NCBI RefSeq assembly: GCF_003862495.1 | Contig: NZ_RRCH01000014.1 | Location: forward strand, 124,001-188,000 | Length of the DNA stretch: 64,000 nucleotides | From: Halocatena pleomorpha | GTDB taxonomy: Archaea > Halobacteriota > Halobacteria > Halobacteriales > Haloarculaceae | Reading direction: 5' to 3' | Shown: positions 11,329 to 48,814 of the stretch, piece by piece | Layout: every line of letters starts with the position of its first letter | Position numbering within the stretch: the stretch's first letter is position 1 | The notes under the pieces: generated by a model | Told to the model about the DNA's origin: nothing | The model's input: the letters and a program-made list of their open reading frames with translations, nothing else | Databases searched by the model: none | Made by a program: the position numbers and the translations under genes

Positions 11329-11350
11329 GACTGGGGGAAATGTGTTTTGT

Positions 11351-30973: not shown

Positions 30974-31309
30974 TCAGAGTTCAGATGGGTCGTCGTGACT
31001 CTCCTCCTCTGGAATTTCATCGTAGGTCACCGACTCGTGTTCGGCTTCAGCGGCGTAGGTCGGCCAGAAATGGATCTCATCATCAGTGACGTCCGCTACG
31101 GAGGCCCGTGCTGCTCCTGCGAGATGGTCTCCGTCGTCTTTGAGCCACGTTATCTCAGAGACTTTCATGTCACTGCGAAGCGCAGGATCGATGTCGTCCG
31201 CGATCTTGATGTACAGCGTCGGACCGTCCATTCCCCGCAGCGTGCCGATCTTGTGCTCTTCGGCAGTGAATATTGGTTTACCGATATCGGCCTCGGTTAC
31301 GTCTTTCAT
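30974..31309 (-). CDS. PRC-barrel-like protein
   Basis: A 111-residue acidic protein. VTEADIGKPIFTAEEHKIGTLRGMDGPTLYIKIADDIDP and the later MKVSEITWLKDDGDHLAGAARASVADVTDDEIHFW match the small beta PRC-barrel fold found in haloarchaeal regulators. It lies 70 bases downstream of the molybdopterin subunit of formate dehydrogenase 1 on the same strand and may be cotranscribed. The long reading frame to 31474 is not coding before ATG 31309. No catalytic role is evident. Confidence 0.65.
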   Translation of the reverse strand: MKDVTEADIGKPIFTAEEHKIGTLRGMDGPTLYIKIADDIDPALRSDMKVSEITWLKDDGDHLAGAARASVADVTDDEIHFWPTYAAEAEHESVTYDEIPEEESHDDPSEL

Positions 31310-31379
31310 GGCTAAAACTAGTCCGAGACGGCTCAGTATAACTGTTCGTACTCCTGTATGAAACTGGTGTGCATCCCGG

Positions 31380-33731
31380 TCAATCGTCCCCCGTCGCGGA
31401 TCGCTCGTCCGTCTCGGAGGGGGGAACGGCTGAAATCGGCCCAGCATCCGACTCGGCCACCGAGATCCGCACATCCGTCACTTTGTATTCGGGGGAGCGA
31501 CTGGGCCCATCAAGCGGCTTCTCCTTTGTCAGATTGTTCGCACCACCGTGGAGGTAATGCATCGGAATGAAGATCGTACCTGGGTTCGGTCGGGTTGTGA
31601 TTTCGGCCATCGCCTGTGTCTCGCCGTGGCGGGACGTGATATCGAGCATATCACCGTTCGACACACTGTACGCGTTTGCCGTCTCCGGATGGATCTCCAC
31701 GAAACTCCTGTCGGTGTAGGACATGTCTCCGGGCTCTCGAAACGTCATCGTGCCGGTGTGGTACTGATACAGCACTCGTCCAGAGGTCATCACCAGTGGA
31801 TAGTCGTCATCGGGCGTTTCGGACGGTTCGACGGTGTCAGCAGGATGCATGTGTGCCAGTCCGTCCGTTGTCTGGAACTGATCCGCGTACGTGTACGGAG
31901 TTCCCGGGTGGTCCTCGTCCCAAACCGGCCATTGAAGCCCTCCGTCCTCGCTGTGTCGTTCAAGGCGTTCATGTGTAATCCCGGCGTAAATCGGGGTGAG
32001 ACCGTTGATCTCCTCCATAATATCACTCGCGTGTGAGAACTCCCAGTCGTACCCGAACCGTTCTGCGAGCTGTTGAGTTATTTTCCAATCTGGCTTTACG
32101 TTCCCGATCGGATCGATGGCTCGTTTGACCAGTTGTACGTGGCGAGTTGAGGCCGTGTACGTCCCGTTCGACTCCAGAGAGGATGTCGCGGGCAGCACGA
32201 CATCGGCGTGCTCGGCGGTGTCGGTCAGGAAAATATCCTGTACTGCAAGGAAGTCGAGGGTTTCGAGCACCTCACGCGCGTGGCCGATGTTGGGTTCAGA
32301 GATCAACGGATTTTCTCCCTGAATAAACATCCCTCTGATATCACCCTGTTCGGCGGCGAGGAACATGTCCGTTATTCGGAATCCCTCCCTGTCGGGCATC
32401 TCTTCTACATCCATGTCGTACGCGTTAGCGAACTTTTTCCTGTTTTCTTCATCCGTGACAGGTTGGTAGCCAGGAAAGTTGTTCGGGACCGGACCCATGT
32501 CTCCCCCACCACCTTGTACGTTGTTCTGCCCGCGGAACGGTGACAGGCCGGCTCTGGGTTTACCGATGTGACCCGTGATAAGCGCGAGATTCGCCATCGC
32601 GTAGATGTTTTCAGTTCCATGCGCGTGTTCAGCCAGTCCGAGCGTCCAGCAAAACACGCACGAGTCGGCCGTCGCGATGGTTTCGGCCGCGTTTTTTAAC
32701 TCTTCGGGTGGAACGCCCGCTTTCTCCTCGACAAATTCCGGCGTGAATTTCTCGACAGTCTCTACCACTTGGTCAAAGCCAGTGGTGCGCTCTTCAATGA
32801 ACTCCTCGTCGTGGAGATCGTTGACGATGATACACCGGATCAGTCCGTTGATCCAGGTGGTATCGTAGCCGGGTTCGATGCGAGAGTACTGGTCCGCATA
32901 CTCGGCCATCTGTATCTTTCGAGGATCAAACACGAGGAGATCAGCGTCGTTATCCTTAACGTTCTGTTTGATCATCGTGGCAAAAACCGGATGAGACTCC
33001 GTCGTGTTCGAGCCGGTGATCAGATAACAGTCGGTCTCTTCGAGCGCCTCGACCCCGACCGAGGCAGCACCGAATCCGACGGTGCTCGAGAGACCTGAGA
33101 CCGTTGCTGCGTGGCACAGACGATTGCAGTTGTCAATGTTGTTCGTCCCGATCACCTCGCGGGCGAACCGTTGCATCACGTAGTTGGCCTCGTTGGTCGA
33201 TTTCGACGACGCGACCAGTCCGAGCGCGTTCGGTCCGTGCTCTGTCCTGATCCCATCGAGTCCCTCCACGACGCGGTCAAGCGCTTCGTCCCACGACGCC
33301 TCCCGAAACTCGCCGTCGTCTTTCAGGAGGGGCTGGGTCAGTCGATCCTCGTTGGTGGCGTACGAATGTGAAAACTTCCCCTTCACACAGGTCGAGATGC
33401 CGTTAATGGGTGCCTTCTCTGGATTCGGACGTGTACCGAGGACAGTACCATCCTTCGAGAGGACATCGTACCGACAGCCGACCGCACAGTACTCACAGGT
33501 CGTGTCGGTGACATTAATGTCGTTGAGCTGGTAGTCTCCGAGCGCGTCCGCGATGGAGAACAGTCGGCCTTCGGAGATGGCATTTCCCATGAATCCGGAG
33601 AACTCGTGTTCGAACGGACGTACGACACGCTCGTTCGCGGCTTTTTTCACCTGTTCGCCGGCCCGATCCTTCGCGCGGGCCATAAAGCCCGCGACGCCCT
33701 GCTGTCCGCTCGCTTGTGGTTCATCGCTCAT
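31380..33731 (-). CDS. fdhA: Formate dehydrogenase molybdopterin (catalytic) subunit, copy 1
   Basis: A 783-residue Mo/W-bis-MGD oxidoreductase. The [4Fe-4S] site is C79-x2-C82-x3-C86 and C115 (CEYCAVGC, ISTCVKGK). The active-site Cys and neighbour His are C206-H207 in NNIDNCNRLCHAATV, where other formate dehydrogenases have Cys or Sec followed by His. The C-terminal MGD domain has YHTGTMTFREP and VEIHPETAN. It oxidises formate to CO2 with the two genes upstream carrying electrons. The start overlaps the stop of the ferredoxin gene by four bases. The paralog at 43776-46190 has CHSPT where this has CHAAT. A homologous electron-bifurcating or NAD-linked form is likely. Confidence 0.86.
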   Translation of the reverse strand: MSDEPQASGQQGVAGFMARAKDRAGEQVKKAANERVVRPFEHEFSGFMGNAISEGRLFSIADALGDYQLNDINVTDTTCEYCAVGCRYDVLSKDGTVLGTRPNPEKAPINGISTCVKGKFSHSYATNEDRLTQPLLKDDGEFREASWDEALDRVVEGLDGIRTEHGPNALGLVASSKSTNEANYVMQRFAREVIGTNNIDNCNRLCHAATVSGLSSTVGFGAASVGVEALEETDCYLITGSNTTESHPVFATMIKQNVKDNDADLLVFDPRKIQMAEYADQYSRIEPGYDTTWINGLIRCIIVNDLHDEEFIEERTTGFDQVVETVEKFTPEFVEEKAGVPPEELKNAAETIATADSCVFCWTLGLAEHAHGTENIYAMANLALITGHIGKPRAGLSPFRGQNNVQGGGGDMGPVPNNFPGYQPVTDEENRKKFANAYDMDVEEMPDREGFRITDMFLAAEQGDIRGMFIQGENPLISEPNIGHAREVLETLDFLAVQDIFLTDTAEHADVVLPATSSLESNGTYTASTRHVQLVKRAIDPIGNVKPDWKITQQLAERFGYDWEFSHASDIMEEINGLTPIYAGITHERLERHSEDGGLQWPVWDEDHPGTPYTYADQFQTTDGLAHMHPADTVEPSETPDDDYPLVMTSGRVLYQYHTGTMTFREPGDMSYTDRSFVEIHPETANAYSVSNGDMLDITSRHGETQAMAEITTRPNPGTIFIPMHYLHGGANNLTKEKPLDGPSRSPEYKVTDVRISVAESDAGPISAVPPSETDERSATGDD

Positions 33732-34666
33732 GATCGGTCAGCTCTTGCGGTCGTAAACTGCTCGCTTGCTTGGGGCTCGTTTTGGGTTTCGAGTTCGCTT
33801 TTCATCGGTGTTCTCTGTGTCGGCTGATGGTCGTATTCCCTACCGACGATCTCCTCAGCGGAGTTCTTGTGTGTGAATCCAGGGACTGGAAGCGTCGTTG
33901 CGTCCACTAATCCTTGTTCGAGGAGTGCACCGGTCGGACAGACTGTCGCACAGTGGCCGCACGAGACGCAGGTCGATTCCATCATCGTCTCCGCCCCGTT
34001 CTGGAAACCGATGCGCGTGTCATCTCCAGATCCCTCCATCCGAAGCACACCCTCGACTTGCACGTCGTTGCACGCTTCGACACACCGATTGCAGAGGATG
34101 CACTTGTTGCGGTCGATCTGAATGAACGGCGACGAGTCATCGATGGGTCCGAGCTGGTCGCGGTCGTGCATCACTCCATAGCGCGGGTCAACCACGTTGT
34201 TCTCTATCGAAACGTCTTGCAGTTCACACCGTCCGTTTTTCCCACACGTCGTACACAGCAGGTTGTGGTTCGAGAGTAACAGATCGAGATTCACGTCGCG
34301 CGCCTCGCGCGCCCTCTCGGTGTCGGTGTGGACAGTCATTCCATCGCGCGGCGGGAAGCTACACGAGGGGACGACGCCGTGTCGTTCGGTTTCAACCATG
34401 CACGTTCGACACTCGCTTCGAGGGCCGATTTTGGCGTTTTCGTCGTACGAACAGAGCGCAAGCACGTCGCCGCTGGTCTCGATCGTTTGACACGCATCGA
34501 GCAGCGTCGCTCCGGCCTCGGTTTCGACTCGTTGGCCGTCGATCGTGATCGTCGCGCGCTCCGTTGCGCCAGCGTCGGGATCGTTTGCCGTTCCTGGTGC
34601 GATATCTTCAGCGAGCGGTACCTCCGGTTCGTTGTGGGACTGTTCCCAGATCGGATCAGTGCTCAT
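33728..34666 (-). CDS. Formate dehydrogenase ferredoxin-like subunit (NuoG N-terminal type), copy 1
   Basis: A 312-residue iron-sulfur protein. A [2Fe-2S] domain is seen as CSYDENAKIGPRSECRTCMVE...CSFP (residues about 75-115), a His/Cys cluster region as NLLCTTCGKNGRCELQ, and two [4Fe-4S] clusters as CILCNRCVEAC and CVSCGHCATVCPTGAL. It wires electrons between the molybdopterin subunit and the NuoF-like subunit. ATG 34666 removes a frame extension that overlaps the upstream gene. It overlaps fdhA by four bases. Confidence 0.86.
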   Translation of the reverse strand: MSTDPIWEQSHNEPEVPLAEDIAPGTANDPDAGATERATITIDGQRVETEAGATLLDACQTIETSGDVLALCSYDENAKIGPRSECRTCMVETERHGVVPSCSFPPRDGMTVHTDTERAREARDVNLDLLLSNHNLLCTTCGKNGRCELQDVSIENNVVDPRYGVMHDRDQLGPIDDSSPFIQIDRNKCILCNRCVEACNDVQVEGVLRMEGSGDDTRIGFQNGAETMMESTCVSCGHCATVCPTGALLEQGLVDATTLPVPGFTHKNSAEEIVGREYDHQPTQRTPMKSELETQNEPQASEQFTTARADRS

Positions 34667-34722
34667 GGTTGGTTCTGTTAATATCTGTCTGGACCAGACG
34701 GTCCGGGGTGACAGTACAGCGT

Positions 34723-36279
34723 TCACGACTGGTTGCAAATGCCAGTCGGACAGTGCCCCTTGGCGTGTGCGGCGAATTCGGTTTCGAACTCCTCCATCGC
34801 GGTCGTGATCGGGCGAGACGCATCGCGGCCGAATCCACAGAGACTGGTCGTACGCATGACGCGCGCGAGTTCGCGGAGTATTTCGCTCTTGTATTCACCG
34901 TCGTACACGCGGCGAAGGATGTACACCAACTGTTTCGTCCCTTCGCGGCACGGGACACACCGCCCACAGTTCGTCTCTTTTGCGAACGTCGCGCGCTCGC
35001 CAACAAGTGCCACCATGCAGGTCGACTCTCCGAGCAGTTCCACGACTCCGTTCGTTCCCAGATGTGCACTCCGCAAGCCGGGTGCGCTCGCGGGCACATC
35101 AAGCGAACGAGTCATCCCACCGAAGACACCGCCGACGCACGCACCATGCCAGCCGTTTTCGAGTTCAACGGCCGATAGCGCTGCATCGAGCGTCGCGTCG
35201 GTTGACAGTTCGGTCGTTGCCAGTGTAGAATCATCGTCCGCGACAGTGATCAGGCGCGTTCCGGGGTCTGACGACGCTCCGCTGGAACCGTTCCCCGCAA
35301 GGAGCGCCCCGATCTGTGCGAACGTTCTGGGCGTGTGGATCAGGGTCGGTCGGCCGTTAACGCCGTATTCGCTCGGGCCCGGCGGCTGGCGACGGGCCTC
35401 AATCCGATGGTTCCCTTCGATCGCTTCAAGCGCCATCGTCGGCTCACCCGCCGTGTACTCGTCTGGACCGGTAACGACTCGTATCGGTATTCCAGTATCA
35501 GTGACAGCGTCGAGTGCGCTAGCCGCCTCCTGTACGCGCTCATAGGCGATCGTTTCGGTTTCGCTCAGGTAGATGACGACATCGGTCGCCCTGAGTGCGA
35601 TCGCTGATGAGAGCGCCGCATCGACAACCGTAAGCGGTGCGCTTTCGAGGAGGAGTCTGTCACCGTCAGCGTGGTCGTCAGCCTCGTTTCCGTTTACGAC
35701 CACGAGCGGATCATCAGATGTCTCGTAAACGGTCGTCCACTCCGCCGCAATGGACGTGTCAGTACTCGCGTCCCCGCGTCCGCGTCCCCGGAGATCAGAC
35801 TGCATCACCGCCGTACGCACGCTTTCGGGATCGTCTTTAGCGCGGTCCGTGAAAAGATCGTCCCGGAGATCGGTGTACTCGTCAACGTTCGTCGGTGTCA
35901 ACCAGCCACAGCCTCCGAGGACACGGCGAGAACCCACGCTCAGCGGGCCGGTCTCGGGCGTCGGCAGAACGGGCGTTGCGGGATCGTGCTCGACAACTGC
36001 CATCGCCCCACCAGCCGGTGCGGTCTCCTCTTCGAGGGTTGTCGCTATCGTTTCCATCCGTTCGGTCGAGGGACGGCTGTAAAACGCTGTTTTCCCGTCG
36101 ACCGTTGCCATGACAAGCGGCTCTAAACCGACGTGGCCGACGGATCCGACCGCCGCTGTCGTGACCGACGTGTCGGCTTCGTTTGCCACGCGGAGAAGTT
36201 CCTGCCCACGGCCGTGACTCTTACTACCAGTAGCAACACGTACGGCCGGAGTGCCGTCGATAACCCTTCCATCAGCCAT
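34723..36279 (-). CDS. NuoF-like diaphorase subunit of formate dehydrogenase, copy 1
   Basis: A 518-residue protein. Residues about 10-80 align with the thioredoxin-like [2Fe-2S] domain of HndC/NuoF-type proteins, but the four Cys are gone (VATGSKS and GSVGHV where Cys is expected). The FMN domain begins at RGRGRGDASTD, a changed form of the usual GRGGAGFPTG loop, followed by VVVNGNEADD. The SLBB region and the final [4Fe-4S] motif CGRCVPCREGT with SLCGFG are kept. It would pass formate electrons to NAD+ or another acceptor. It heads the operon, with a TATA-like element 26 bases before ATG 36279. Confidence 0.84.
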   Translation of the reverse strand: MADGRVIDGTPAVRVATGSKSHGRGQELLRVANEADTSVTTAAVGSVGHVGLEPLVMATVDGKTAFYSRPSTERMETIATTLEEETAPAGGAMAVVEHDPATPVLPTPETGPLSVGSRRVLGGCGWLTPTNVDEYTDLRDDLFTDRAKDDPESVRTAVMQSDLRGRGRGDASTDTSIAAEWTTVYETSDDPLVVVNGNEADDHADGDRLLLESAPLTVVDAALSSAIALRATDVVIYLSETETIAYERVQEAASALDAVTDTGIPIRVVTGPDEYTAGEPTMALEAIEGNHRIEARRQPPGPSEYGVNGRPTLIHTPRTFAQIGALLAGNGSSGASSDPGTRLITVADDDSTLATTELSTDATLDAALSAVELENGWHGACVGGVFGGMTRSLDVPASAPGLRSAHLGTNGVVELLGESTCMVALVGERATFAKETNCGRCVPCREGTKQLVYILRRVYDGEYKSEILRELARVMRTTSLCGFGRDASRPITTAMEEFETEFAAHAKGHCPTGICNQS

Positions 36280-36300
36280 CGTTCAAACGATTCGAATCGA

Positions 36301-36308
36301 GATATAAA
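36301..36308 (-). promoter_or_regulatory. TATA box of formate dehydrogenase operon 1
   Basis: On the minus strand TTTATATC is centred about 26 bases upstream of ATG 36279, giving a leaderless operon mRNA. Confidence 0.5.
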
Positions 36309-36388
36309 TCTTCGTGGCTTGTATTTGAAACAGTATAGAACGTAATCATATTCAAGTAACAAGAGATCGAAGGGCGACCGCCGTCTCG

Positions 36389-37138
36389 TTATGTTGCGTC
36401 GGTGGCCTGTGGTCGATCGCTCTGCGTGCGTTTGTGTTGCTGAAGCCACTGCTGATACTCTGGTGGAGCGACGACCCGCACGGTTGCGAGCATCGTCGAG
36501 TGACCAACGCCACAGAACTCGGCGCAGTAAAGACGGTACGTGCCAGCCTTCGTAACATTTGTCTTAAACGTGGTCGTTCGACCGGGGAACGCGTCTTGTT
36601 TGACGCCGAGAGCGGGAATGTGGACGGAGTGAATCACGTCTGTCGAGGTGATTCTGAAGAGGATCGTTCGGTTCGCAGGAAGCACCAGCGTATTCGTCGT
36701 CGTCACTTCCTCGTCGGGGTACGTGAACTCCCAGAACCAATTTTGTCCCGTAACGTGAACGTCGACAGGCCGTGAAGAATTTGTCATGTCAGGACCAGCT
36801 GAAACCGTCAGATTTCCGAGCACCAGGTACGACGAGGTGCCAACGAACAACAGGATAAGTACGACGACGACAGTCCACGTGATTTCAAACGATGGACGTT
36901 CCTCCGTCGGCTTCGGATCGTTATTGGCGTGGAACGTTATCATAGCGTACAATATCGCCCCTTCGACGAGGAGGGTGAGCGGAACTGCGACCAGCAGTAA
37001 CCGTCGATGCAGCGTTCGAAGGAGTACCTCGCTCACGGAGTCGTAGCCGGGCGTCGGAAGCGGAACCACAGCAACGGTTATTACAATCAGTCCGACGAGC
37101 AGTACCACGAGGGGAAGTAGCCGCGACTGATTCATCAC
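36389..37138 (-). CDS. coxB: Cytochrome c oxidase subunit II
   Basis: A 249-residue protein with an N-terminal segment, two membrane helices (about 6-80) and an external cupredoxin domain. The CuA ligands are H in VIHSVHIPALG and CAEFCGVGHSTM (C-x3-C-x3-H-x2-M); the acidic residue E of CAEFC is also kept. It accepts electrons, probably from a blue copper protein, and passes them to subunit I. Its ATG overlaps the stop of coxA (ATGA). Confidence 0.9.
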   Translation of the reverse strand: MMNQSRLLPLVVLLVGLIVITVAVVPLPTPGYDSVSEVLLRTLHRRLLLVAVPLTLLVEGAILYAMITFHANNDPKPTEERPSFEITWTVVVVLILLFVGTSSYLVLGNLTVSAGPDMTNSSRPVDVHVTGQNWFWEFTYPDEEVTTTNTLVLPANRTILFRITSTDVIHSVHIPALGVKQDAFPGRTTTFKTNVTKAGTYRLYCAEFCGVGHSTMLATVRVVAPPEYQQWLQQHKRTQSDRPQATDAT

Positions 37139-38859
37139 TCATCCTCCCGTTCGAGTTGCGTCTCGAACCACTGCCACTCCCGCGTGAACTGACCGATGTC
37201 CTTCAAGTCCCAAACGTCGGCGTTTTCGATCCGCGGACCCATTCGGTAGGATTGAACCATGTTCCACAGCCAGATGAGCACTCCGAGACCGAGGAGATAC
37301 GCACCGCCAGTCGCGATCTGCTGAAGAAGCGTGAACTCGGCTGGATACGTCGCGTACCGTCGCGGAAGACCGAGATACCCCACGATGAGCATGGTGAAAA
37401 ACGCGATCCAGACGCCCGCGAACGTGAGCACAAGGTGGACGAGCGCCAGCCGTCTGTCGTACATCTTCCGGGTGAGAATCGGATACCAGTAGTAGCTTCC
37501 AGCGAACATCGCAAAGACGATCAGGCCCATGATAATGAAATGAAAGTGTCCCACGACGTACCACGTATCGTGCACGAGAAGGTCAACAGGGATAGACGCG
37601 AGGAACACACCGGTGATCCCGCCGACGGCGAACGTGCTAATGCCACCGATGCAAAAGAGCATTGGTGCGGCGAACCTGATCCGTCCGTTCCAGAGGGTAG
37701 CGATCCAGTTGAACATCTTTATCGAACTCGGCACTGCGATGGCGAGCGAGACGACCATGAACGACATGCGCAATCGTGGGTCGATACCGGTGGTGAACAT
37801 GTGGTGTGCCCAGACGCCAAACGAGAGGACACCGATCGCCAACGTCGTGTACACCATCGACCGAAAGCCGAACACTTCGCGCGCGGCGAACTTCGGGAGT
37901 ATCAAACTGACGAGCGTGAGACCGGGAAGGACGATGATGTACACTTCCGGGTGGCCGAAAAACCAGAACAGATGTTGCCAGAGCAACGGCCCACCGCTCT
38001 TGACCGCGAAAAAAGTCGTCCCGAAATTGCGATCAAGAAGGAGCATGACGAACGCGCTCCCTAGCAACGGAAACGCGAACAGGATGATCCCGCTCATAGT
38101 GAGCATCCCCCACGAGAAGATGTCGATATCAGCCCATGAGACGGAATCGCTGCGTTCAAGAATAATAGTGGTGATGAAGTTGATTGCGGCGATCGTCGTT
38201 GCGATGCCCGAAAGATGAAGCCCCACGAGAAGGATGTCCGTTTCGGGGTTCGTACTCACCACAGAGAGTGGAGGGTACAGCGTCCAACCGAGTTCAGGCG
38301 GTTGTATCGCAAACAGAAAACCAAGATCCAGATCTAATGCAAGGAACAACCGCCCAATCACTTCAGTGATGAGTCCTGCTCGAACGAGGACGAGTGCAGG
38401 CGGGAGCAACCAGAAGCCGATGGCGTTCAACCGGGGAAACGCCATGTCGTCCGCACCGAGCATGATGGGAATAAAGTAGTTTCCGATTCCTGTGAACACC
38501 GGCGTGACGAACAACAGCAACATCGTGAGCCCGTGGGTCGTAAAGAGAGCGTTGTACGTCCCACTGGTCCAAACGACCGCCTCGGGATTCAACAGTTCTG
38601 TTCTGATCATCATCGCGTCGGTCGCCCCCCACAGCCCAGTGAACGTTCCAAAGATGAGATACAGGATACCGATACGCCGATGATCGATGGTCAATACCCA
38701 CTCAAGAAGATCGACCACTCCTGGAAGTCCAACCTCATCGCTGACGGTCACAGTGCCACCGTCAGTCCACGGTGACGGTGACCGTCCGATCGACCGCAGC
38801 AGCCATGCTGTTCCTGCCGCGATCCCTACAACGAGCACCATGAACGGAACGACATCCAC
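37135..38859 (-). CDS. coxA: Cytochrome c oxidase subunit I (aa3-type)
   Basis: A 574-residue, 12-helix heme-copper oxidase. The low-spin heme His lies in YNALFTTHGLTM, the CuB His-Tyr region in WFFGHPEVYIIVLPG, the two CuB His in WAHHMFTTGID and the heme His pair in VGHFHFIIMG. This makes it the oxygen-reducing, proton-pumping subunit. The start is GTG 38859 (ATG at 38841 is possible); a TATA-like TTTTATATA lies at 38910-38918. Overlaps coxB by four bases. Confidence 0.92.
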   Translation of the reverse strand: MDVVPFMVLVVGIAAGTAWLLRSIGRSPSPWTDGGTVTVSDEVGLPGVVDLLEWVLTIDHRRIGILYLIFGTFTGLWGATDAMMIRTELLNPEAVVWTSGTYNALFTTHGLTMLLLFVTPVFTGIGNYFIPIMLGADDMAFPRLNAIGFWLLPPALVLVRAGLITEVIGRLFLALDLDLGFLFAIQPPELGWTLYPPLSVVSTNPETDILLVGLHLSGIATTIAAINFITTIILERSDSVSWADIDIFSWGMLTMSGIILFAFPLLGSAFVMLLLDRNFGTTFFAVKSGGPLLWQHLFWFFGHPEVYIIVLPGLTLVSLILPKFAAREVFGFRSMVYTTLAIGVLSFGVWAHHMFTTGIDPRLRMSFMVVSLAIAVPSSIKMFNWIATLWNGRIRFAAPMLFCIGGISTFAVGGITGVFLASIPVDLLVHDTWYVVGHFHFIIMGLIVFAMFAGSYYWYPILTRKMYDRRLALVHLVLTFAGVWIAFFTMLIVGYLGLPRRYATYPAEFTLLQQIATGGAYLLGLGVLIWLWNMVQSYRMGPRIENADVWDLKDIGQFTREWQWFETQLEREDE

Positions 38860-39026: not shown

Positions 39027-39470
39027 CTACGCACGGTTATCCGTTGTGTCTGGAGATGGTGGCTGTCCAGTCCAGTTATACACCGCTCCGAGCGTGAATC
39101 CGTATGCAAGGTGTGTGAGAAGCGTTACGGCGAGATAGAAGAGTACAACCGACGTGTCGATCTGGGCAGTTCCGACGAGAACGAAGCCGATCCACAACAC
39201 GGTGGCAAGCAACATTCCTTTCACGGCGGGATCGTGTTGCGGTGGGAGGTAGGGAAAGAGGAGAGCGAACAGAAGCGGCCAAACGACGATACCGAAAAAA
39301 AAGAAGATGAGCAGTCCCCGCCCCACCCGTCCGGGCATTCCGAAAAACCTGGCGAGAGCGTCGAACAAGGACAGTTCCGACCGCGTCTGGACATCAACGA
39401 TTAGAAGGGCCATGCTCATAACGGTCGTGCTCGCAACACCGGCGGTGATCGCGCGTTGTACTTTGTGCAT
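39027..39470 (-). CDS. Small membrane protein, cytochrome oxidase associated (DUF6789-like)
   Basis: A 147-residue protein with four hydrophobic helices. The N-terminus VQRAITAGVASTTVMSMALLI and the middle FFGIVVWPLLFALLFPYLPP resemble a haloarchaeal family often found beside oxidase genes. The role is unknown; it lies 167 bases after coxA promoter region, on the same strand. The C-terminus is cytoplasmic and acidic. Confidence 0.65.
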   Translation of the reverse strand: MHKVQRAITAGVASTTVMSMALLIVDVQTRSELSLFDALARFFGMPGRVGRGLLIFFFFGIVVWPLLFALLFPYLPPQHDPAVKGMLLATVLWIGFVLVGTAQIDTSVVLFYLAVTLLTHLAYGFTLGAVYNWTGQPPSPDTTDNRA

Positions 39471-39637
39471 GGTTGTATGGTGGACATCGACTGTCTACTT
39501 GCGTTACTAGATTCGTTTCAATGTATGGCCCGTATAGATATCAGTCCTTCGGACCACAGAACGAAAGGATTGGACGACCATTCCGGCCACAGACAGGACG
39601 CCAATAATTTTTGCGCGTTGATTGGCTACTCATAATA

Positions 39638-40458: not shown

Positions 40459-41346
40459 CTACGGCGCACTGATCGAGGCACCGATATACACGGCTGTGAC
40501 GAGGAAGAGCCAAACCCCATCGACGAAGTGCCAGTACATCGAAACGGTACTGATTGATGTCATCCGGGTCGCTGAATACTGCTCAAGCAACCAGCCACGG
40601 ACGAAGACGATACTCAAAAGCACCACGCCGAGTGTGACGTGGAGTCCGTGGAGTCCGGTCAGTCCATAAAACGCGCTTGCAAACAGTCCACTCGAAAGCG
40701 TGTACCCTTCTCTGACGACGAACTCGTAGTACTCGTACAGTTGTCCAATGAGGAACACTGCGCCGAGAGCCACTGTGACACCGAGCAACCGGAGAAAACG
40801 CGTGCGATCGTTCTCATGAAGCGCCCGGTGGGCGAAATGCACCGTCACGCTGCTCGTGACGAGCAACACCGTATTCACGAACACCACCGGACTGAGAAGT
40901 TCCGGTATCACCCCTCGGGGCCAGGGGTGTGCCCGAATGTAGAAGTAGTACGTGAACCCTGCGCTGAACGTGGCAACCTCCGTTATGAGAAACAGAAGCG
41001 TCGTTGATCGAAGCGTCAATTGGGCGTGGATATCGGTTCCGTACTCCCAGTACCGATAAACGAAGGCGTGATACAACCACCCGAGCAGTCCACTCACAAA
41101 AAGACCCAAGCCAACGAAAAAGAGCACGAAACCGGGCCACTGGGGGACAAACGAATTGACGCCATATCCGAGTCCGTATCCGATAATGATAGTAGCCACG
41201 CCCACGTACAGTAACCCGACGCCGACAGCGCTCATCACCGGCCATAGACTCGTTTCTTCGATTGTCGTCGGCCAATCGTACACGCCCGGCGTCTCCTCAG
41301 ATCGTGGCCGTCCATCCCCTCCTTGCGTCGTTCGTTCATCGGTCAT
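40459..41346 (-). CDS. coxC: Cytochrome c oxidase subunit III
   Basis: A 295-residue protein with seven predicted helices. Typical stretches are LLFLITEVATFSAGFTYYFYIR, GLTGLHGLHVTLGVV and MYWHFVDGVWLFLVTAVYIG. The acidic and His positions of subunit III are seen in these. The long frame upstream to 41643 is not coding; ATG 41346 begins the acidic N-terminus MTDERTTQGG. It is separated from coxBA by three non-cox genes. Confidence 0.88.
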   Translation of the reverse strand: MTDERTTQGGDGRPRSEETPGVYDWPTTIEETSLWPVMSAVGVGLLYVGVATIIIGYGLGYGVNSFVPQWPGFVLFFVGLGLFVSGLLGWLYHAFVYRYWEYGTDIHAQLTLRSTTLLFLITEVATFSAGFTYYFYIRAHPWPRGVIPELLSPVVFVNTVLLVTSSVTVHFAHRALHENDRTRFLRLLGVTVALGAVFLIGQLYEYYEFVVREGYTLSSGLFASAFYGLTGLHGLHVTLGVVLLSIVFVRGWLLEQYSATRMTSISTVSMYWHFVDGVWLFLVTAVYIGASISAP

Positions 41347-41480
41347 ACGTATAGTCCTCAGTAGTTCCCCATCCGTGACGAACGGGTCAGTCCGACATCG
41401 CTTGGGTACTCGCCCTTCGGCGGCATAACGTCTTGCCCGGCGTATGGTTAGCAGACCGAACGTAGCTGCATCGTATGGGA

Positions 41481-41500
41481 TTACAAGCATACGTTTGTAA
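41481..41500. promoter_or_regulatory. TTACA-N10-TGTAA palindrome, site C
   Basis: TTACAAGCATACGTTTGTAA lies between coxC (minus) and the FNT-UspA gene (plus). The outer six bases are exactly symmetric. It is related to sites at 2831, 19854 and 26466. The remainder of the 41347-41724 gap holds nothing I recognise. Confidence 0.35.
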
Positions 41501-41724
41501 TGATGATTCGACGAGCAAATACGGCTATCACTGGGTGGTGCCTTTCGTACGGCGTTACCAAACAGTGTGGAGGGTCTCAGTTCGACACACCGGTGTTCGA
41601 ACAGTCGGCTGATGTACGTCGAAGCGTACGGCTGCACGCTCAACTGATCGAACAGGTCGTGGTCCGTGCTCTCGAATAACAGACAGATACGAACTGCTTA
41701 GTTTCTCTACGGACACATTCCAGC

Positions 41725-43536
41725 ATGGACGAGGGAGACGACTCCGACTCCGAGAGGGCAGTTCGAGACGCGATCGAACGGTCTAGAAGCGGTGCCCCTG
41801 CAGTCGGAGCGGTTGTTCGTGACCGGTTCTCCGCGGACGAGGTCTTTCAGAGAATCGTTGCCGCTGCCGACGAAGAGATCACGTCAGGCACCCGTGAACT
41901 GTTTTTCAGCGCGCTCGCTGGTGGCTTTGCCATCACCATCACGTTTCTGCTCTATTCCTCGATGACAGCTACGACGGGTGATAACCCGGTGATGAGTGCC
42001 CTCCTGTATCCCCTTGGCTTCATCTACATCATCATCGGTGGGTACCAACTGTACACCGAAAACACGGTCCCGCCGGTGACGCTGACGTTGGAACGGTTAG
42101 CGAGTCTTCCGGCATTGTTGCGCCACTGGTCGACCGTCCTCGCTGGCAACTTCATTGGGGGAGCCATCGGGGCAGCAGCACTCACGTGGGGGGACGTGTT
42201 CTCCTCCGGTGCAACGACTGCGGCACTACGCCACGCCCGGCACGGCGTCGAAACACCGGTGACTGCGTTGTTTTTCAAGGCCGTGTTTGCCGGATTAATC
42301 GTCGCCGGGGTCGTCTGGATTGTGTACGCCGCGCGTGACACCATTTCCCGCCTCGTTGTCGTGTATCTAGCCTTTCTTGCGATCCCGCTTGGAAACCTCT
42401 TTCACGTGGTCGTCTCGTTCACTGAAATGATGTATTTGGTGTTTGCCGGTAACCTTAGCTTTACCGTCGGATTGATTCAGTTTATCGTCCCAGTCCTTGC
42501 CGGTAACACACTCGGAGGCATCGTGCTGGTGACGGTTATCAATTACTTTCAGACGACCGAACGTCGTCTCGAATCCGCGCGGTTCGAGGGGGTAGATCGG
42601 CAGCTTTCGATCAGGGAGTGGACAGTCGGAAGCCTCGCGGGTCGTTCATACGTCTCCATGATCGACACGGCTGACGAGCCTGTGGCCGATGACGCCTCCT
42701 ACCGAGTGCTTGTCCCAATCGGTAATCCCCGCACCGAATCCGGTGTTGTCGATCTCGCTTGTTCGATCGCCAGCGAACGAGAGCCTGCGACCGTTCACGC
42801 GGTTCACATCGTCCAAACGCCACGAGTGTCAGTGGGATACGAGCGCAACCACAGGGAGCAAATCGTTGCCGAGTCCAATGAACTCATGGCAGATATCGAC
42901 GAGACCACGCAGTCGTATGGGGTCTCCTGTGCAACCTCGACGATCGTTTCCCACCGCTCCTTCGAGGAGATTTTCGACACGGCGGCGCGGGAACGTGCGA
43001 ATCTCGTGGTAATGGGATGGGGTCCCGACCGGCCGTGGGGGGCTGGCCACACGGATCGTCCGATCGCCGAGCTGACCGGACAGCTCTCTAGTGACGTTCT
43101 CGTCCTCAAAGATCGTGGGTTCGACGCTTCGCGGATCCTCCTTCCAACGGCAGGGGGACCGCACTCTGATCTGAGCGCTGAAGTCGCGCGGGCACTCCGC
43201 GCGACTGCCGGCTCCGAGATCACACTTCTCCACGTCGTCGACGGACCCCAAGAGCGTGAGGCAGGCAAGCAGTTCCTCACTGACTGGGCAGTGGACCACG
43301 ACTTAGACGACGCCGTTCAGGTTGTCGATGACTCTAACGACATCGAAGGTACGATCGGTCGTATGGCAACCGATCATACTCTCATACTCATTGGGGCCAC
43401 CGAAGAGGGACTGCTCTCACGACTCGTTACTGACTCGTTGTATTTCGATGTCATCCACGAAGTCGATTGCTCGGTCCTTCTCACCGAACGACCGGGCGGA
43501 CGAACGATTCTCGAACGGTTGATCGGACGAACATGA
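41725..43536 (+). CDS. FNT-family (YfdC-like) channel fused to two UspA domains
   Basis: A 603-residue protein. Residues about 50-300 form the six-helix formate/nitrite transporter core; LGNLFHVVVSFTEMMYLVFAGN and VPVLAGNTLGGIVLVTVINYFQ match the YfdC-like subgroup rather than FocA. Residues about 325-455 and 460-600 are UspA domains (ILLPTAGGPHSDLSAEVARAL). The second UspA has DS where the APC-fused paralog has GS in the nucleotide loop. Its position between two formate dehydrogenase operons suggests that it moves formate, but YfdC-like proteins are not proven formate carriers. The UspA pair is closely similar to that of the APC permease at 4601-6862. Confidence 0.83.
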   Translation: MDEGDDSDSERAVRDAIERSRSGAPAVGAVVRDRFSADEVFQRIVAAADEEITSGTRELFFSALAGGFAITITFLLYSSMTATTGDNPVMSALLYPLGFIYIIIGGYQLYTENTVPPVTLTLERLASLPALLRHWSTVLAGNFIGGAIGAAALTWGDVFSSGATTAALRHARHGVETPVTALFFKAVFAGLIVAGVVWIVYAARDTISRLVVVYLAFLAIPLGNLFHVVVSFTEMMYLVFAGNLSFTVGLIQFIVPVLAGNTLGGIVLVTVINYFQTTERRLESARFEGVDRQLSIREWTVGSLAGRSYVSMIDTADEPVADDASYRVLVPIGNPRTESGVVDLACSIASEREPATVHAVHIVQTPRVSVGYERNHREQIVAESNELMADIDETTQSYGVSCATSTIVSHRSFEEIFDTAARERANLVVMGWGPDRPWGAGHTDRPIAELTGQLSSDVLVLKDRGFDASRILLPTAGGPHSDLSAEVARALRATAGSEITLLHVVDGPQEREAGKQFLTDWAVDHDLDDAVQVVDDSNDIEGTIGRMATDHTLILIGATEEGLLSRLVTDSLYFDVIHEVDCSVLLTERPGGRTILERLIGRT

Positions 43537-43546
43537 CCGGCACACC

Positions 43547-43645
43547 TTATTCTTCCGTGTCGGCGTGTTCTTCCATAACGTGATCCCTCAGATCTGCTTC
43601 GTTATCGAACGATGCGTCACACATGTCGCACTCGTGCTGTTTCAT
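43547..43645 (-). CDS. 32-residue C2H2 zinc finger protein
   Basis: A tiny protein with one complete zinc finger: C6-x2-C9-x3-F13-x5-L19-x2-H22-x4-H27, including the hydrophobic positions of the classical C2H2 fold. ATG 43645 gives a compact finger; the longer frame to 43903 has no further features. Similar single-finger proteins are frequent in haloarchaea and some affect transcription. It lies beside the second formate dehydrogenase operon on the same strand. Confidence 0.6.
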   Translation of the reverse strand: MKQHECDMCDASFDNEADLRDHVMEEHADTEE

Positions 43646-43775: not shown

Positions 43776-46190
43776 TCACCAACGATCCGACTGTGAATGT
43801 CCGGTACCGGGACGGGGGGACGGTTCCGCGTCTGAGACATCGAAATCGGCAGGAGTCGCTGCCTGACCGACGGTCGATCTGCTGGCCGGCGTTCGTCGTC
43901 CACCTGTTTCAGGTTCGATCCGCACAGGTGTCGCCTTGTACTCGGGACACCGAGCGCTCGGATCGAGTGCCTCCTCGTTAGTCAACAGATTGACCTGTGC
44001 GTCGTCAAGATAGTGCATCGGAACGAAAATCGTTTCGGGGTTCACCCGCTTTGTGACCTGCGCTAGTACTCGTGCCGATCCGTTCGGTGACGTTACCCGG
44101 ACGTACTCGCTGTCCCCGATGTTGTGGTCGGCCGCAGTTTCGGGGTGGATCTCAGCGAAGGCTTCCCCTGCAATCGACATGAGACCCTCTTCACGATGGG
44201 TCATCGTCCCCGTGTGGTACTGATACAGCACCCGACCCGTAGTCAGTGTCAGGGGATACCGGTCGTCGGGTTTTTCTTTCGGACCATCCGTGTCAGTCGG
44301 GATCAAAAACGCCTTCCCGTCGGGCTGATTGAACTTCTCAAGATACACCGTCTCGGTACCGGAGTGCTCTTCGTCCCAGCACGGCCAGCAGATACCACCG
44401 TCCTCTTCAAGCCGCTTGTGACTGATTCCGCCATAGATCGGGGTGAGACTCGCAATTTCGTCCATGATCTCTGCTGAGGATTCGTACCCCCACTCGTGAC
44501 CGAAGCGTTCGGAGAGTGCTTGGACGATCCTCCAGTCCTGTTTGGCGTTGCCTTTCGGCTCTATCGCTTGTTTAACCAGCTGTACCCGACGCGTCGAACT
44601 CGTGAACGTGCCGTTCGATTCGACGAACGACGTGGCCGGCAGCACGACGTCGGCGTACTCGGCGGTGTCGGTCAAAAAGATGTCTTGAACACAGAGGAAA
44701 TCGAGATTTTCCAAAATCTCCCGTGCGTGAGCGACGTTCGGCTCCGAAACCGCAGGATTCTCGCCCATGACGAACATCCCCTTGATATTCCCCTCATCGG
44801 CAGCGAGGAACTGTTCAGTGATCGTTAATCCGTCCTCATCGGTGAGTTCGACGCCGTACGCGTTCTCGAATTTCTGACGGACATCGTCGTCGGTCACTTT
44901 CTGGTAGCCCGGGAAATTCCCCGGTACGGGTCCCATATCACCGCCACCACCCTGAACGTTGTTCTGCCCACGGAACGGTGAGACACCCGAGTTCGGCGTT
45001 CCCACGTGACCAGTGACGAGTGCGAGATTCGCCATCGAAATCACGTTTTTCGTTCCGTTGACCTGCTCTGTGAGTCCGAGCGCCCAGCAGAACACGCAGC
45101 TGTCGGCGGCAGCGATCCCTTCGGCGGCCTGCTTGAGTTCGTCCGGTGGGACACCGGCTTTCTCCTCGACGTATTCGGGGGTGAACTTCTGGACGGAGTC
45201 CGCTAACTCCTCGAAACCGACGGTTCGCTCGTCGATGAATTCGGTGTCGTGCAGGTCGTTTTCAATGATGTGGCGGATCATCCCGTTGATCCATACCGCG
45301 TCGTATCCCGGTCGGACACGGGTGTACTGTGAACGGGTGAATTCAGCGATCTTCACCACCCGCGGATCAAACACGTAGATGTCTGCCCCCTGAATGACGT
45401 TCTGCTTTATGAGCGTCGCAAGCACCGGATGCTGCTCGGTGGTGTTCGATCCCGTGACCAAGAAACAGTCGGTGTTTTTGAGATCAGTGCGACTGATCGA
45501 ACTCGCACCGTAGCCGAGCGTTTGTGAGAGCGCTTCGACCGTGGGAGAATGACACAAGCGGTTACAGTTATCGACGTTGTTCGTCCCGATCGACTGCCGG
45601 ACGAACTTCTGCATCACGTAATTGGCCTCGTTGGTCGCTCTCGAAGACGAGACGAATCCGAGCGCGTTCGCTCCGTGCTTCTCTTTAATCTGCCCGAGTC
45701 GATCTGCAACGAAGTCGAGGGCCTCGTTCCAGGAGGCTTCCTGAAATTCGCCGTTTTTCCGTATCAGGGGCTGTGTAAGTCGATCGTCACTGTTCAAGAA
45801 TCCATAGCTGAACTTGCCTTTGACGCAGGTCGAAATGCCGTTGATCGGCGCGTTGTCCGGATCGGTGGGCCGTGAGGCGAGCACTTCCCCGTTTTTCGTG
45901 TAGAGATCGAACCGACAGCCGACAGCGCAGTATCCGCATGTCGTATCAGTCACGTCGACCTCCGAAAGTCGGTAATCATACAGGACCTTCGACAACTGGA
46001 ACAGTTTCCCCTCACTGATCGTGTCTGCAGCGATCGAGGCGGCGCTTTGTTCGAGGAACTGTGCTGGGCTCCGACCGAGGCCCCGCCGTTTCAACCTCGA
46101 TCTTGCCTGTCCTTTCGCGCGTTGCATGAATCCAGCAACGCCGTCTAACTCCGTGCTGCCGTCGTTCGTCGTATCGTTACTCATCGTCAC
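43776..46190 (-). CDS. fdhA: Formate dehydrogenase molybdopterin subunit, copy 2
   Basis: An 804-residue paralog of the protein at 31380-33731. The [4Fe-4S] ligands are C85, C88, C92 and C122 (CGYCAVGC...STCVKGK). The active site is C213-H214 in NNVDNCNRLCHSPTV, the canonical formate dehydrogenase form. The C-terminal MGD domain includes YHTGTMTHREEG and EIHPETAADH. It oxidises formate, using the two upstream gene products. ATG 46190 or 46184; the start overlaps the stop of the ferredoxin-like gene. Confidence 0.87.
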   Translation of the reverse strand: MTMSNDTTNDGSTELDGVAGFMQRAKGQARSRLKRRGLGRSPAQFLEQSAASIAADTISEGKLFQLSKVLYDYRLSEVDVTDTTCGYCAVGCRFDLYTKNGEVLASRPTDPDNAPINGISTCVKGKFSYGFLNSDDRLTQPLIRKNGEFQEASWNEALDFVADRLGQIKEKHGANALGFVSSSRATNEANYVMQKFVRQSIGTNNVDNCNRLCHSPTVEALSQTLGYGASSISRTDLKNTDCFLVTGSNTTEQHPVLATLIKQNVIQGADIYVFDPRVVKIAEFTRSQYTRVRPGYDAVWINGMIRHIIENDLHDTEFIDERTVGFEELADSVQKFTPEYVEEKAGVPPDELKQAAEGIAAADSCVFCWALGLTEQVNGTKNVISMANLALVTGHVGTPNSGVSPFRGQNNVQGGGGDMGPVPGNFPGYQKVTDDDVRQKFENAYGVELTDEDGLTITEQFLAADEGNIKGMFVMGENPAVSEPNVAHAREILENLDFLCVQDIFLTDTAEYADVVLPATSFVESNGTFTSSTRRVQLVKQAIEPKGNAKQDWRIVQALSERFGHEWGYESSAEIMDEIASLTPIYGGISHKRLEEDGGICWPCWDEEHSGTETVYLEKFNQPDGKAFLIPTDTDGPKEKPDDRYPLTLTTGRVLYQYHTGTMTHREEGLMSIAGEAFAEIHPETAADHNIGDSEYVRVTSPNGSARVLAQVTKRVNPETIFVPMHYLDDAQVNLLTNEEALDPSARCPEYKATPVRIEPETGGRRTPASRSTVGQAATPADFDVSDAEPSPRPGTGHSQSDRW

Positions 46191-47166
46191 TGTATTGCCA
46201 GATCGAATCGGTTTGTTCGTCGATCTTCGGTTCCGCTTCGGTGTGTTCTTCAGTGTACATCGGCGTCATCCGTCGTGGGCGGGACGTGTACTCTTCACCG
46301 ATCGTTTTTCCGACCGAGTTGGTGTGTGTGAACCCTGGGATCGGCAGCGTTGCTGCTTCGACGAGGTTCTGTTCGACGAGCGCACCGGTCGGACACACCG
46401 TCACACAGTGTCCACAGGAGACACACGTCGATCCCATCATCGTCTCCGCGCCGTTCTGAAAGCCGATACGCATCTCTCCGGCTTGTCCCTCCATTCGGAG
46501 TACGCCGGCGACTTGGATGTCGTTGCAAGCCTCGACACAGCGGTTACAAAGGATGCATTTGTTCCGGTCAATCTGAATGAACGGTGATGACTCATCGATC
46601 GGTTCTAACGCATCGCGGTCATGGACCACACCGTAGCGCGGGTGTTCGACTTCGGCCTCGATCGACGCTTCCTGAAGTTCACACCGTCCGTTTTTCCCAC
46701 AGGTCGTACACAGAAGGTTGTGTCCACCTAACACGAGATCGAGATTCACGTCTCGCGTCTCGGAGGCAGCGGGTGTATCAGTCCGGACGTTCATGCCCTC
46801 TCTCGCGGGAAAGCTACACGAGGGGATGAGTCCGTACTCGTCGCTGTCGACCATACACGTCCGGCACGTGCTTCGTGGACCGATGCGGTCGTCTTTTTGG
46901 TAGGAACACAGCGCTGGAACGTTTTCGTTCGTCTCCGCCGTGACGAGACCGTCGAGTACCGTCGATGACGGCCCCAACGTGACTGACTGACCGTCAACAG
47001 TGATCGTCGTCGTCTCATCGGACGTTACGTCCGGGTCGGTCGCCGTTCCCGTGGCAAGCACCGCATTGATCTCCACCTGTCCCTCCCTAACGCGCCGGCT
47101 TTTCTTCCATATCGGCTCCGCTTCTGGCGTGTCTTGTGTGTTGTCCCAGATTGGATCTGAACTCAT
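46177..47166 (-). CDS. Formate dehydrogenase ferredoxin-like subunit, copy 2
   Basis: A 329-residue paralog of 33728-34666. It keeps the [2Fe-2S] Cys set (CSYQKDDRIGPRSTCRTCMVDSD...CSFP), LLCTTCGKNGRCELQ, and two [4Fe-4S] clusters (CILCNRCVEAC, CVSCGHCVTVCPTGAL). Its acidic N-terminus is longer than copy 1. It connects the molybdopterin and NuoF-like subunits. The end overlaps the start of fdhA copy 2 by 14 bases. Confidence 0.86.
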   Translation of the reverse strand: MSSDPIWDNTQDTPEAEPIWKKSRRVREGQVEINAVLATGTATDPDVTSDETTTITVDGQSVTLGPSSTVLDGLVTAETNENVPALCSYQKDDRIGPRSTCRTCMVDSDEYGLIPSCSFPAREGMNVRTDTPAASETRDVNLDLVLGGHNLLCTTCGKNGRCELQEASIEAEVEHPRYGVVHDRDALEPIDESSPFIQIDRNKCILCNRCVEACNDIQVAGVLRMEGQAGEMRIGFQNGAETMMGSTCVSCGHCVTVCPTGALVEQNLVEAATLPIPGFTHTNSVGKTIGEEYTSRPRRMTPMYTEEHTEAEPKIDEQTDSIWQYSDDE

Positions 47167-47248
47167 ACCTTCTGTCTCCGTTCATTGGATCGCATTCGGT
47201 TTCCTGTACAACCGTCGTGGATCGCTTGCGTGGTTCGTCTTATCGCGG

Positions 47249-48814
47249 TCATGGTGTACAAACGCCGTTCGGACAGCGCCCGTCGGCGTGAGCGCGAAAT
47301 TCTGATTCGAATTCGTTCATAGCAGTTGCGACCGGTCGTTGTGCGTCGCGACCGAACTGGCAGATGCTTGATCTATGCATTACGCGTAACAGCTCTCGGA
47401 TCTTTTCGGCGTCAAACGTGCCATCGTAGATGTCACGAAGCATATCTGCGAGCTGTTGGGTCCCGCCACGGCAGGGAAAGCACCGACCGCAGTTCTCCTT
47501 CTCAGCGAACGACGCACGGTGGCCGACGACCGACAACATACACCGGTCTTGGTCGAAGAGTTCGATGACGCCGTTCGTTCCGAGATTCGCAGCCGCAAGC
47601 GCGTTCGTGTGGGCCGGCACATCGAGCGTACGCGTCATCCCTCCGAAGACGCCACCGACGCAGGCAGCTTTCAGTCGGCCGTCGAGCTTAACAGCGTGTT
47701 CAACGACGGAAAGCGTGTCATTCGTCGCAAGTTCGAGCGTCATCGGTGTCTCAACATCTCCAGCGACGGTGACGAGACGGGTGCCTGGATCGGAATCGTT
47801 TCCGATTCCATCGCCGCCATCAACGAAGAAAGCACGAATCTGTGCCAACGTTCTGGGCGTGTGAATCAGCGTTGGCCGTCCGTAGAGACCCTCCTCGCGC
47901 GGGAACGGAGGCCGGAGGCGTGCCTCAAGGCGATGATTGCCCTCAAGGGCTTCGATCGCCATCGTCAACTCACCGGCCGTGTACTCGTCTGGCCCGGCGA
48001 TGGCTTCGATCGGGATGTCGGCACCAACCTTGTTCGTCAGTTCGGCAGCGGCCTCGTTGACACGATCCCTCGCAAGGTCTTCTGTCTCATTGAGATAGAC
48101 GAGAAGGTTCGTCGCGCCGATGATCCGAGCCGCCGCCAGTGCCGCATCAAGCACGGCTAATGGATTCGATTCGAGTAGCAATCGATCCATCTCCGCGTCT
48201 GGGTCGGCTTCGTTCCCGTTCACCACGACGACGGGATCGGCGTCACGCTCGCGGCTAATCTCTCGGACCGTCCGCCACGCGTCTGCGATCCGTGTATCAC
48301 ACGACCCGTCACCACGACCACGACCGCGTAGGCCGGTGTCATCAAGTGTAGAAAGCCATTCGGTGGCCTGATCAGCAACGGTAGCCGCAAGAAAATCCCT
48401 CGACGCCACGTAATCGTTCGTGTTTGCTGGGAGTATCCATCCGCTTCTGTCGAGCACTCGCCGCTGACCGAGTGCGAAAACCCCTTCGTCCGGCGTCGGC
48501 AGCGTCGCCGTCGCCGGATCGTGTTCGGTGACTGCCATCGCTCCTGTCGTCGGTAGCGATCCATCGTCAAGCGCGACCACGAGATCGCGGACCCGCATAA
48601 GCGAACACTGGGGATAAAACGCTGTCTCCCCCTGATACGTCGCCAGTATGAGTGGTTCCAACTCCTGAATACCGGTCGGTCCCACCTCTACGATCGGGAC
48701 TGACGCCTTCGGCTCGCAAGCCGCATGGAGCACCTCTCGGCCTCGTATCCTGTTTTTTCCGCCCGTGGATACGCGAATAATCGTGTCTTCTTCGATCGAA
48801 CCGTTCTGCGCCAT
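47249..48814 (-). CDS. NuoF-like diaphorase subunit of formate dehydrogenase, copy 2
   Basis: A 521-residue paralog of 34723-36279. As in copy 1, the thioredoxin-like [2Fe-2S] domain has lost its cysteines (VSTGGKN, GPTGIQ), the FMN loop reads GRGRGDGSCD, and the [4Fe-4S] motif CGRCFPCRGGT with SICQFG is kept (G and F differ slightly: CQFG for CGFG). This points to a stable variant, not recent decay. It heads operon 2; the TTTATTA stretch at 48841-48847 on the minus strand is about 30 bases before ATG 48814. Confidence 0.84.
   Translation of the reverse strand: MAQNGSIEEDTIIRVSTGGKNRIRGREVLHAACEPKASVPIVEVGPTGIQELEPLILATYQGETAFYPQCSLMRVRDLVVALDDGSLPTTGAMAVTEHDPATATLPTPDEGVFALGQRRVLDRSGWILPANTNDYVASRDFLAATVADQATEWLSTLDDTGLRGRGRGDGSCDTRIADAWRTVREISRERDADPVVVVNGNEADPDAEMDRLLLESNPLAVLDAALAAARIIGATNLLVYLNETEDLARDRVNEAAAELTNKVGADIPIEAIAGPDEYTAGELTMAIEALEGNHRLEARLRPPFPREEGLYGRPTLIHTPRTLAQIRAFFVDGGDGIGNDSDPGTRLVTVAGDVETPMTLELATNDTLSVVEHAVKLDGRLKAACVGGVFGGMTRTLDVPAHTNALAAANLGTNGVIELFDQDRCMLSVVGHRASFAEKENCGRCFPCRGGTQQLADMLRDIYDGTFDAEKIRELLRVMHRSSICQFGRDAQRPVATAMNEFESEFRAHADGRCPNGVCTP

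Follow-up and report, generated by a model that had tools for sequence, protein, structure and literature searches.

A formate dehydrogenase subunit derived from NuoF but lacking NAD-site residues in Halocatena pleomorpha and other haloarchaea

Formate dehydrogenases (FDHs) with NuoF- and NuoG-like partners are easily assumed to be linked to NAD. A 64,000-nt stretch of the genome of the haloarchaeon Halocatena pleomorpha (the window: contig NZ_RRCH01000014.1, positions 124,001 to 188,000) holds two FDH operons of this general design, with genes for a haem-copper oxidase and an FNT channel between them. The locus raises the question of where such enzymes deliver the electrons of formate, and whether the neighbouring genes belong to the same pathway. 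What emerges extends beyond the window: haloarchaea in which FdhD is undetectable carry a NuoF-derived FDH subunit that has lost the NAD-site residues.

Two operons and the genes between them

An earlier note on this DNA had recognized the gene order NuoF-like (F), ferredoxin-like (G) and molybdopterin (A) subunit twice on the minus strand, and both operons are indeed located there. The genes, together with a small ORF that follows the first operon, are:

fdhF1, 34723..36279, minus strand: NuoF-derived Fe-S subunit, 518 aa, without the canonical NAD/FMN loop residues (PF10589 and PF01512, motif comparison)
fdhG1, 33728..34738, minus strand: NuoG-N-terminal-like Fe-S subunit, likely start at 34666 (Fer2_4, NADH-G_4Fe-4S_3, Fer4)
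fdhA1, 31380..33731, minus strand: molybdopterin catalytic subunit, 783 aa (TIGR01591 and motifs)
111-aa conserved protein, 30974..31309, minus strand: downstream of fdhA1; homologues in two congeneric genomes (G392 and G393), 76-77%
fdhF2, 47249..48814, minus strand: NuoF-derived Fe-S subunit, 521 aa, without the canonical NAD/FMN loop residues
fdhG2, 46177..47166, minus strand: NuoG-N-terminal-like Fe-S subunit (Pfam)
fdhA2, 43776..46190, minus strand: molybdopterin catalytic subunit, 804 aa (TIGR01591, 795.2 bits, and motifs)

The F subunits carry the Pfam domains Complex1_51K and NADH_4Fe-4S and the G subunits the three domains listed for fdhG1, whose motifs are those of a 2Fe-2S, a His-Cys3 4Fe-4S and a 2x4Fe-4S set. 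Looked at for a counterpart of the FdsD subunit of FdsABGD, the 111-aa protein 3' of fdhA1 has no Pfam match, and no comparable ORF was seen beside fdhA2. The two copies are 59% (A), 61% (G) and 54% (F) identical to each other.

The identification of the catalytic subunits as FDHs stands: FdhA1 (758.8 bits) and FdhA2 both score above the 666.25-bit cut-off of the Fdh-alpha equivalog (NCBIfam TIGR01591, Mo/W-bis-PGD formate dehydrogenase). The Cys-His pair and the Arg of RGxNN, which are conserved and required in classical FDHs (PMC8808070), are kept in all of the F-G-A catalytic subunits examined, and the motifs DNCNRLCH and SPFRGQNNVQG are present in A1, in A2 and in A3, the catalytic subunit of a third operon that is described below. 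The best solved relative of FdhA2 is Bacillus YjgC/ForC (8rqz, E 5.6e-186). To judge by these features, both window operons look functional. FDHs of this family are reversible and the substrates of the two copies could differ, which leaves some room for Mo subunits that act chiefly as CO2 reductases or on a different small substrate; against the equivalog scores of both FdhA proteins and their intact formate active-site motif, that is very improbable.

Between the operons lie:

coxB, 36389..37138, minus strand: oxidase subunit II with CuA ligands (DVIHS, CAEFCGVGHSTM; TIGR02866, alignment to 2gsm)
coxA, 37135..38859, minus strand: haem-copper oxidase subunit I (PF00115, 466 bits)
DUF6789 membrane protein, 39027..39470, minus strand (PF20587)
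small lipoprotein, 39632..40069, plus strand: lipobox LTGC, possible cupredoxin
DUF6684 membrane protein, 40066..40389, minus strand (PF20389)
coxC, 40459..41643, minus strand: oxidase subunit III, true start probably internal (PF00510)
FNT-UspA, 41725..43536, plus strand: FNT channel fused to UspA domains (PF01226, PF00582)

The coxBA, coxC and FNT genes are thus as the earlier note had them, the oxidase being of the CuA-containing aa3 type. CoxB exceeds its TIGR02866 cut-off (176.8 against 147.7 bits); CoxA is far above the cut-off of Pfam COX1 but, at 608.6 bits, under the 670.75 bits of the CtaD_CoxA equivalog (TIGR02891). Since CoxB retains the CuA ligands, the oxidase is predicted to take its electrons from a copper protein or cytochrome and not from quinol. 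Of the cupredoxin-like lipoprotein that had also been proposed, the lipobox is confirmed and the cupredoxin label lacks a direct Pfam match: the protein shows 30-33% similarity to proteins of 655-705 aa, the one of these that was scanned having a sub-threshold Copper-bind match. The FNT domain (PF01226, 162.1 bits against a cut-off of 34.6) falls far under the cut-off of the FocA equivalog (TIGR04060; 62.7 against 290.1 bits). Among solved structures it matches LCIA best and other FNT channels next, and alignment to solved FNT channels suggests that the central His is kept (GNLFHVVVS). With several other COX1 genes and five FNT matches in the genome, neither the window oxidase nor its FNT channel is the sole one of its kind. 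UspA domains are fused to three transporters of the window, an amino acid permease (4601-6862), an Na+/H+ exchanger (11342-13651) and the FNT channel, and a short C2H2 zinc-finger-like ORF (MKQHECDMCDASFDNEADLRDHVMEEH; 43547-43645, minus strand) lies between FNT-UspA and fdhA2.

The NAD site of the F subunit

Whether F can serve as an NAD-reducing subunit was approached by comparing 51 haloarchaeal FDH F sequences, which a branch with SH-aLRT 100 sets apart in the F tree, with a canonical set of 14 (NuoF of E. coli, the HydB of 7q4v and 12 homologues from genomes of archaea, three of these haloarchaeal). At G64, G66, F67, K72, D92, N217, N218 and E220 (E. coli numbering) the residues of the two sets do not overlap at all. 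Haloarchaeal FDH F lacks the NN residues and the canonical loop, GRGG[AG]GF.TG.KW; at no place in the loop does any of the 51 have a Lys or a Phe, while both are present in 14 of 14 canonical sequences, and E183 (same numbering) is likewise gone from all 51. The three canonical homologues of haloarchaeal origin retain F67 and K72, like the rest of their set. The replacements are nearly uniform: G64 is R in 42 of the 51, G66 is D, N217 is H and N218 is T in 50 each, and E220 is R in every one. The window copies do retain other parts of the FMN pocket (GRG, N90, E182, T221), so that F may still bind a flavin, and all four N3-type cluster cysteines. The third of these cysteines is Gly in 11 of the 51 F subunits (NCGRCVPGREG), which suggests further decay or an altered cluster; loci with this variant are L018, L022, L024, L025, L026, L042, L050, L053, L061 and L075.

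The bearing of these losses on function comes from the Rhodobacter capsulatus enzyme. The loop Lys157 of its FdsB subunit is essential for NAD+ activity, K157R and K157S being inactive (PMC10671435), Glu259 contacts the ribose of NADH and Phe152 stacks on its adenine (PMC10671435, PMC7171172). We equate FdsB K157, E259 and F152 with E. coli K72, E183 and F67 by motif position, a matching of our own. With these NAD-site residues lost from F, NAD+ is an unlikely acceptor. The earlier note had taken the enzymes to be soluble and NAD-linked; F would then bind FMN and reduce NAD+, and the NADH would enter respiration. The homology of F to FdsB, HydB and NuoF speaks for such a pathway, as do the pocket residues and N3-type cysteines that the window copies retain, but Lys, Phe and Glu are absent from all 51 sequences, NN has become HT in 50, a change of the one Lys suffices to end NAD+ activity in the Rhodobacter FDH (PMC10671435), and no NuoE/FdsG ORF was seen in the operon neighbourhoods of F1, F2 or F3, the latter being the F subunit of the third operon. 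We regard NAD linkage as quite improbable and do not retain it. A different fate for F would be a retasked pocket, in which GRGRGD and HTPRT bind another ligand or cofactor (another flavin, for example, or F420) and provide a new electron output. The conservation of the substituted residues themselves across the 51 sequences, complete in the case of E220 to R, is what one would then look for; F nevertheless evolves faster than its partners (dN/dS of 0.14-0.18, against 0.07-0.10 for A and G), and the Gly at one N3-type cysteine position in 11 of the 51 fits a structural role, so that retasking also appears unlikely.

Two other approaches to F were set aside. The missing [2Fe-2S] cysteines of its N-terminal thioredoxin domain were dropped as a diagnostic, since the NAD-linked Rhodobacter FdsB is also without this cluster (PMC7171172), and an AlphaFold2 model of FdhF2, for which the alignment consisted of the two window sequences, had a mean pLDDT of 38.7, too poor for inspection of the pocket. 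These F subunits did not come up in literature searches that combined FDH with Haloferax and NuoF, or haloarchaea with FdhD.

Set beside known systems, the window operons recall FdsABGD of R. capsulatus and Cupriavidus necator in their parts: an FDH catalytic subunit with Cys-His-Arg, a NuoG-type Fe-S chain and a NuoF-derived subunit whose N-terminal thioredoxin-like domain carries no cluster. They differ in having the NuoG-like part as a protein of its own, in the loss of the NAD-site Lys, Phe and Glu from F and in the lack of an FdsG (NuoE) gene in the operon; FdhD/FdsC, moreover, is not detected in this genome. The NADH-linked hydrogenase HydABC and the NuoEF module of complex I have an F subunit homologous to that of the window (HydB of 7q4v, E 4e-52), but with the loop and NN residues that the window F has lost. 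The FdhA proteins of Halodesulfurarchaeum and the natronoarchaea are also cytoplasmic haloarchaeal FDHs, and strain HTSR1, like the window, has two fdhA genes near each other; these FdhA were described without partner subunits and with EtfAB as the proposed partner, whereas the window provides F and G (PMC5437934, PMC6176080).

Relatives of the operons and conservation of their linkage

Two FDH operons is the right count for the window but not for the genome. A whole-genome search finds five molybdopterin oxidoreductases, two of them in one further operon, on contig C21:

third FDH operon, L006:4933-12923 on contig C21: F3, G3, A3, DUF1641 and a second FdhA-like gene, in that order

With 56-59% identity to A1 and A2, A3 is roughly as distant from either as they are from each other. 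The second FdhA-like protein of this operon (651 aa) is about 36% identical to A3 and keeps Cys-His and Arg; another DUF6789 gene adjoins the operon. The fourth Complex1_51K protein of the genome, which also has an RnfC_N domain, has kept the loop (AGGAGFPSYAKW).

In what follows, G360, G392, G393 and G277 are congeners, G337 is a genome of the same family and f8 is another family. In a catalytic-subunit tree with 56 members, A1 joins G337 and f8 genomes before it joins A2, close orthologues of A2 are confined to two congeners (G360, 92%; G392, 83%), A3 falls into a third clade, and a fourth clade consists mostly of G-A fusion proteins. The F tree places F1 beside G337 and f8 genomes and F2 beside G304 (f8). 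By these topologies A1 and A2 are deep paralogues rather than sisters, each with nearer relatives in another family. Since each copy groups with its own relatives in both trees, a recent tandem duplication in this lineage is ruled out as the origin of the pair; of the old duplication that had been suggested, the old divergence holds and the local duplication does not. F-subunit homologues are found in 155 of the 391 genomes sampled from the class Halobacteria (about 40%), and in most of the 155 they are much closer to the window type than to canonical NuoF. A MoaA-like gene, of molybdenum cofactor synthesis, lies near an A1-type operon in two f8 genomes (L049:8359-9420, with a similar ORF in L046).

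The whole 18-kb stretch might be a single selected module for formate-oxidizing respiration, comprising the channel, two FDHs and the oxidase; the earlier note had suggested a formate-driven respiratory module and looked to conservation of the pair in relatives. In G360 the gene order is the same, within a block that is alignable over 30055-56507 and in which the main pieces have 78-85% DNA identity. Relative to G360, dN/dS is 0.07 (A1), 0.10 (G1) and 0.18 (F1) for the first operon and 0.09 (A2), 0.10 (G2) and 0.14 (F2) for the second, ratios that show purifying selection maintaining both; at 0.08 to 0.16, the cox and FNT genes are under purifying selection as well. But the fdh-cox-FNT linkage is confined to two of seven congeneric genomes, this one and G360. 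G392 has its A1, A2 and A3 operons scattered over separate stretches with cox and FNT not nearby, and the A1 operon of G393 is likewise without cox or FNT nearby. Within the genus, the window coxA has an orthologue (91%) only in G360, the remaining congeners reaching at most 69%. The search of gene neighbourhoods that had been proposed as a check went against the linkage: among the ORFs compared, no FDH or cox gene lies within about 10 kb of FNT-UspA at any of the 80 GTDB loci fetched (the FNT gene itself being masked by a longer ORF in a minority of these). The further oxidases and FNT matches of the genome also count against a dedicated module, as does the upstream region of the first operon:

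conserved upstream element of fdhF1, 36280..36340, minus strand: CAAATACA...TTTATATCTCGATTCGAATC, probable own promoter

In four genomes with differing preceding genes, the 60 nt upstream of fdhF1 are 63-74% identical and the next 60 nt only 39-51%. Conservation of this stretch whatever gene precedes it suggests a promoter that belongs to operon 1 itself, and disfavours a dependence on cox through co-transcription of coxAB-fdhFGA1, which the 109-nt gap had made a candidate. A single selected module is, on balance, doubtful; the position of the FDH genes beside the oxidase and FNT is a local arrangement.

Some observations on the compared genomes may be recorded here. G360 has an extra FdhA-like gene (A4-like) beside fdhF2; the window was searched for a remnant of this gene, without success. 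The stretch conserved in G360 includes, at 51852-53867 of the window, a secreted GH10 (xylanase-like) protein with fn3 and PKD domains. For the congeneric species G277 and G393, matches fall at the same contig coordinates; G393, which is 9% contaminated, may include the other assembly.

Electron acceptor, maturation and wider meaning

The reading that best accommodates these sequences, and which we think probable, is that the window encodes cytoplasmic Mo formate dehydrogenases whose electrons go to ferredoxin or menaquinone rather than to NAD+. The two enzymes would follow the plan of the complex I front end: A would oxidize formate, G would provide a chain of Fe-S clusters, and F, a descendant of NuoF, would no longer reduce NAD+. 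The Fe-S chain would hand the electrons to ferredoxin or, in the manner of Bacillus ForCE, to menaquinone, and they could then reach oxygen by way of a copper protein and the aa3 oxidase. The adjoining oxidase and FNT-UspA may serve formate respiration and uptake, and the two operons probably serve different conditions. Formate-driven aerobic respiration is a plausible, if putative, outcome, tempered by the finding that natronoarchaea did not use formate aerobically (PMC6176080).

The menaquinone-linked ForCE (YjgC-YjgD) of Bacillus subtilis shares with the window enzymes, as proposed here, an output other than NAD. Its active site is Cys-Gln, in contrast with the Cys-His of these FdhA proteins (PMC8808070), and ForC is fused to a NuoG-like domain and, unlike the window operons, has no NuoF-like subunit. 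Menaquinone use by ForCE needs ForE, a member of the DUF1641 family (PMC8808070). A DUF1641 gene accompanies each of the nine A3-type operons in the tree as well as that of G392; among the operons of A1, A2 or fused type that were examined, the two of the window included, none has one alongside. Since the DUF1641 protein that adjoins it belongs to the ForE family, a quinone link of the third operon is plausible by analogy. The window operons could share the DUF1641 protein of C21, use ferredoxin or have a partner of their own, such as the 111-aa protein.

Maturation presents a separate puzzle. In E. coli, FDHs are reported to require FdhD for activity (Thome et al. 2012, as cited in PMC8808070), but FdhD/NarQ (PF02634) has no match in the H. 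pleomorpha genome nor in any of the 391 sampled haloarchaeal genomes; the same model is positive in 8 of 14 control genomes, three archaea among them, and a second FdhD model (TIGR00129) has no match in 20 of 20 relatives. With FdhD undetectable in all 391, although F-G-A FDHs whose active sites are intact are common among haloarchaea, enzymatic activity of these FDHs is not assured. Formate oxidation is nonetheless documented in Halodesulfurarchaeum (PMC5437934), and an alternative sulfuration route therefore probably exists, unless a divergent FdhD escapes both models.

That no FdhD is detectable where FDH active sites are intact and some haloarchaea are documented to oxidize formate would point either to a sulfuration route that is as yet unknown or to FDHs that are independent of FdhD, and FdhD-less FDHs also bear on the engineering of CO2-reducing enzymes. 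If F cannot use NAD+, the NAD-linked reading would be wrong for most of the Halobacteria that bear F homologues (155 of 391), and the entry of formate electrons into the respiratory chain at high salt becomes testable. More broadly, and tentatively, since we put it at somewhat less than even, these operons may exemplify a widespread haloarchaeal type of FDH in which the diaphorase subunit derived from complex I has become a flavin-free or retasked outlet, matured without FdhD and coupled to the quinone/ferredoxin pool rather than to NAD+.
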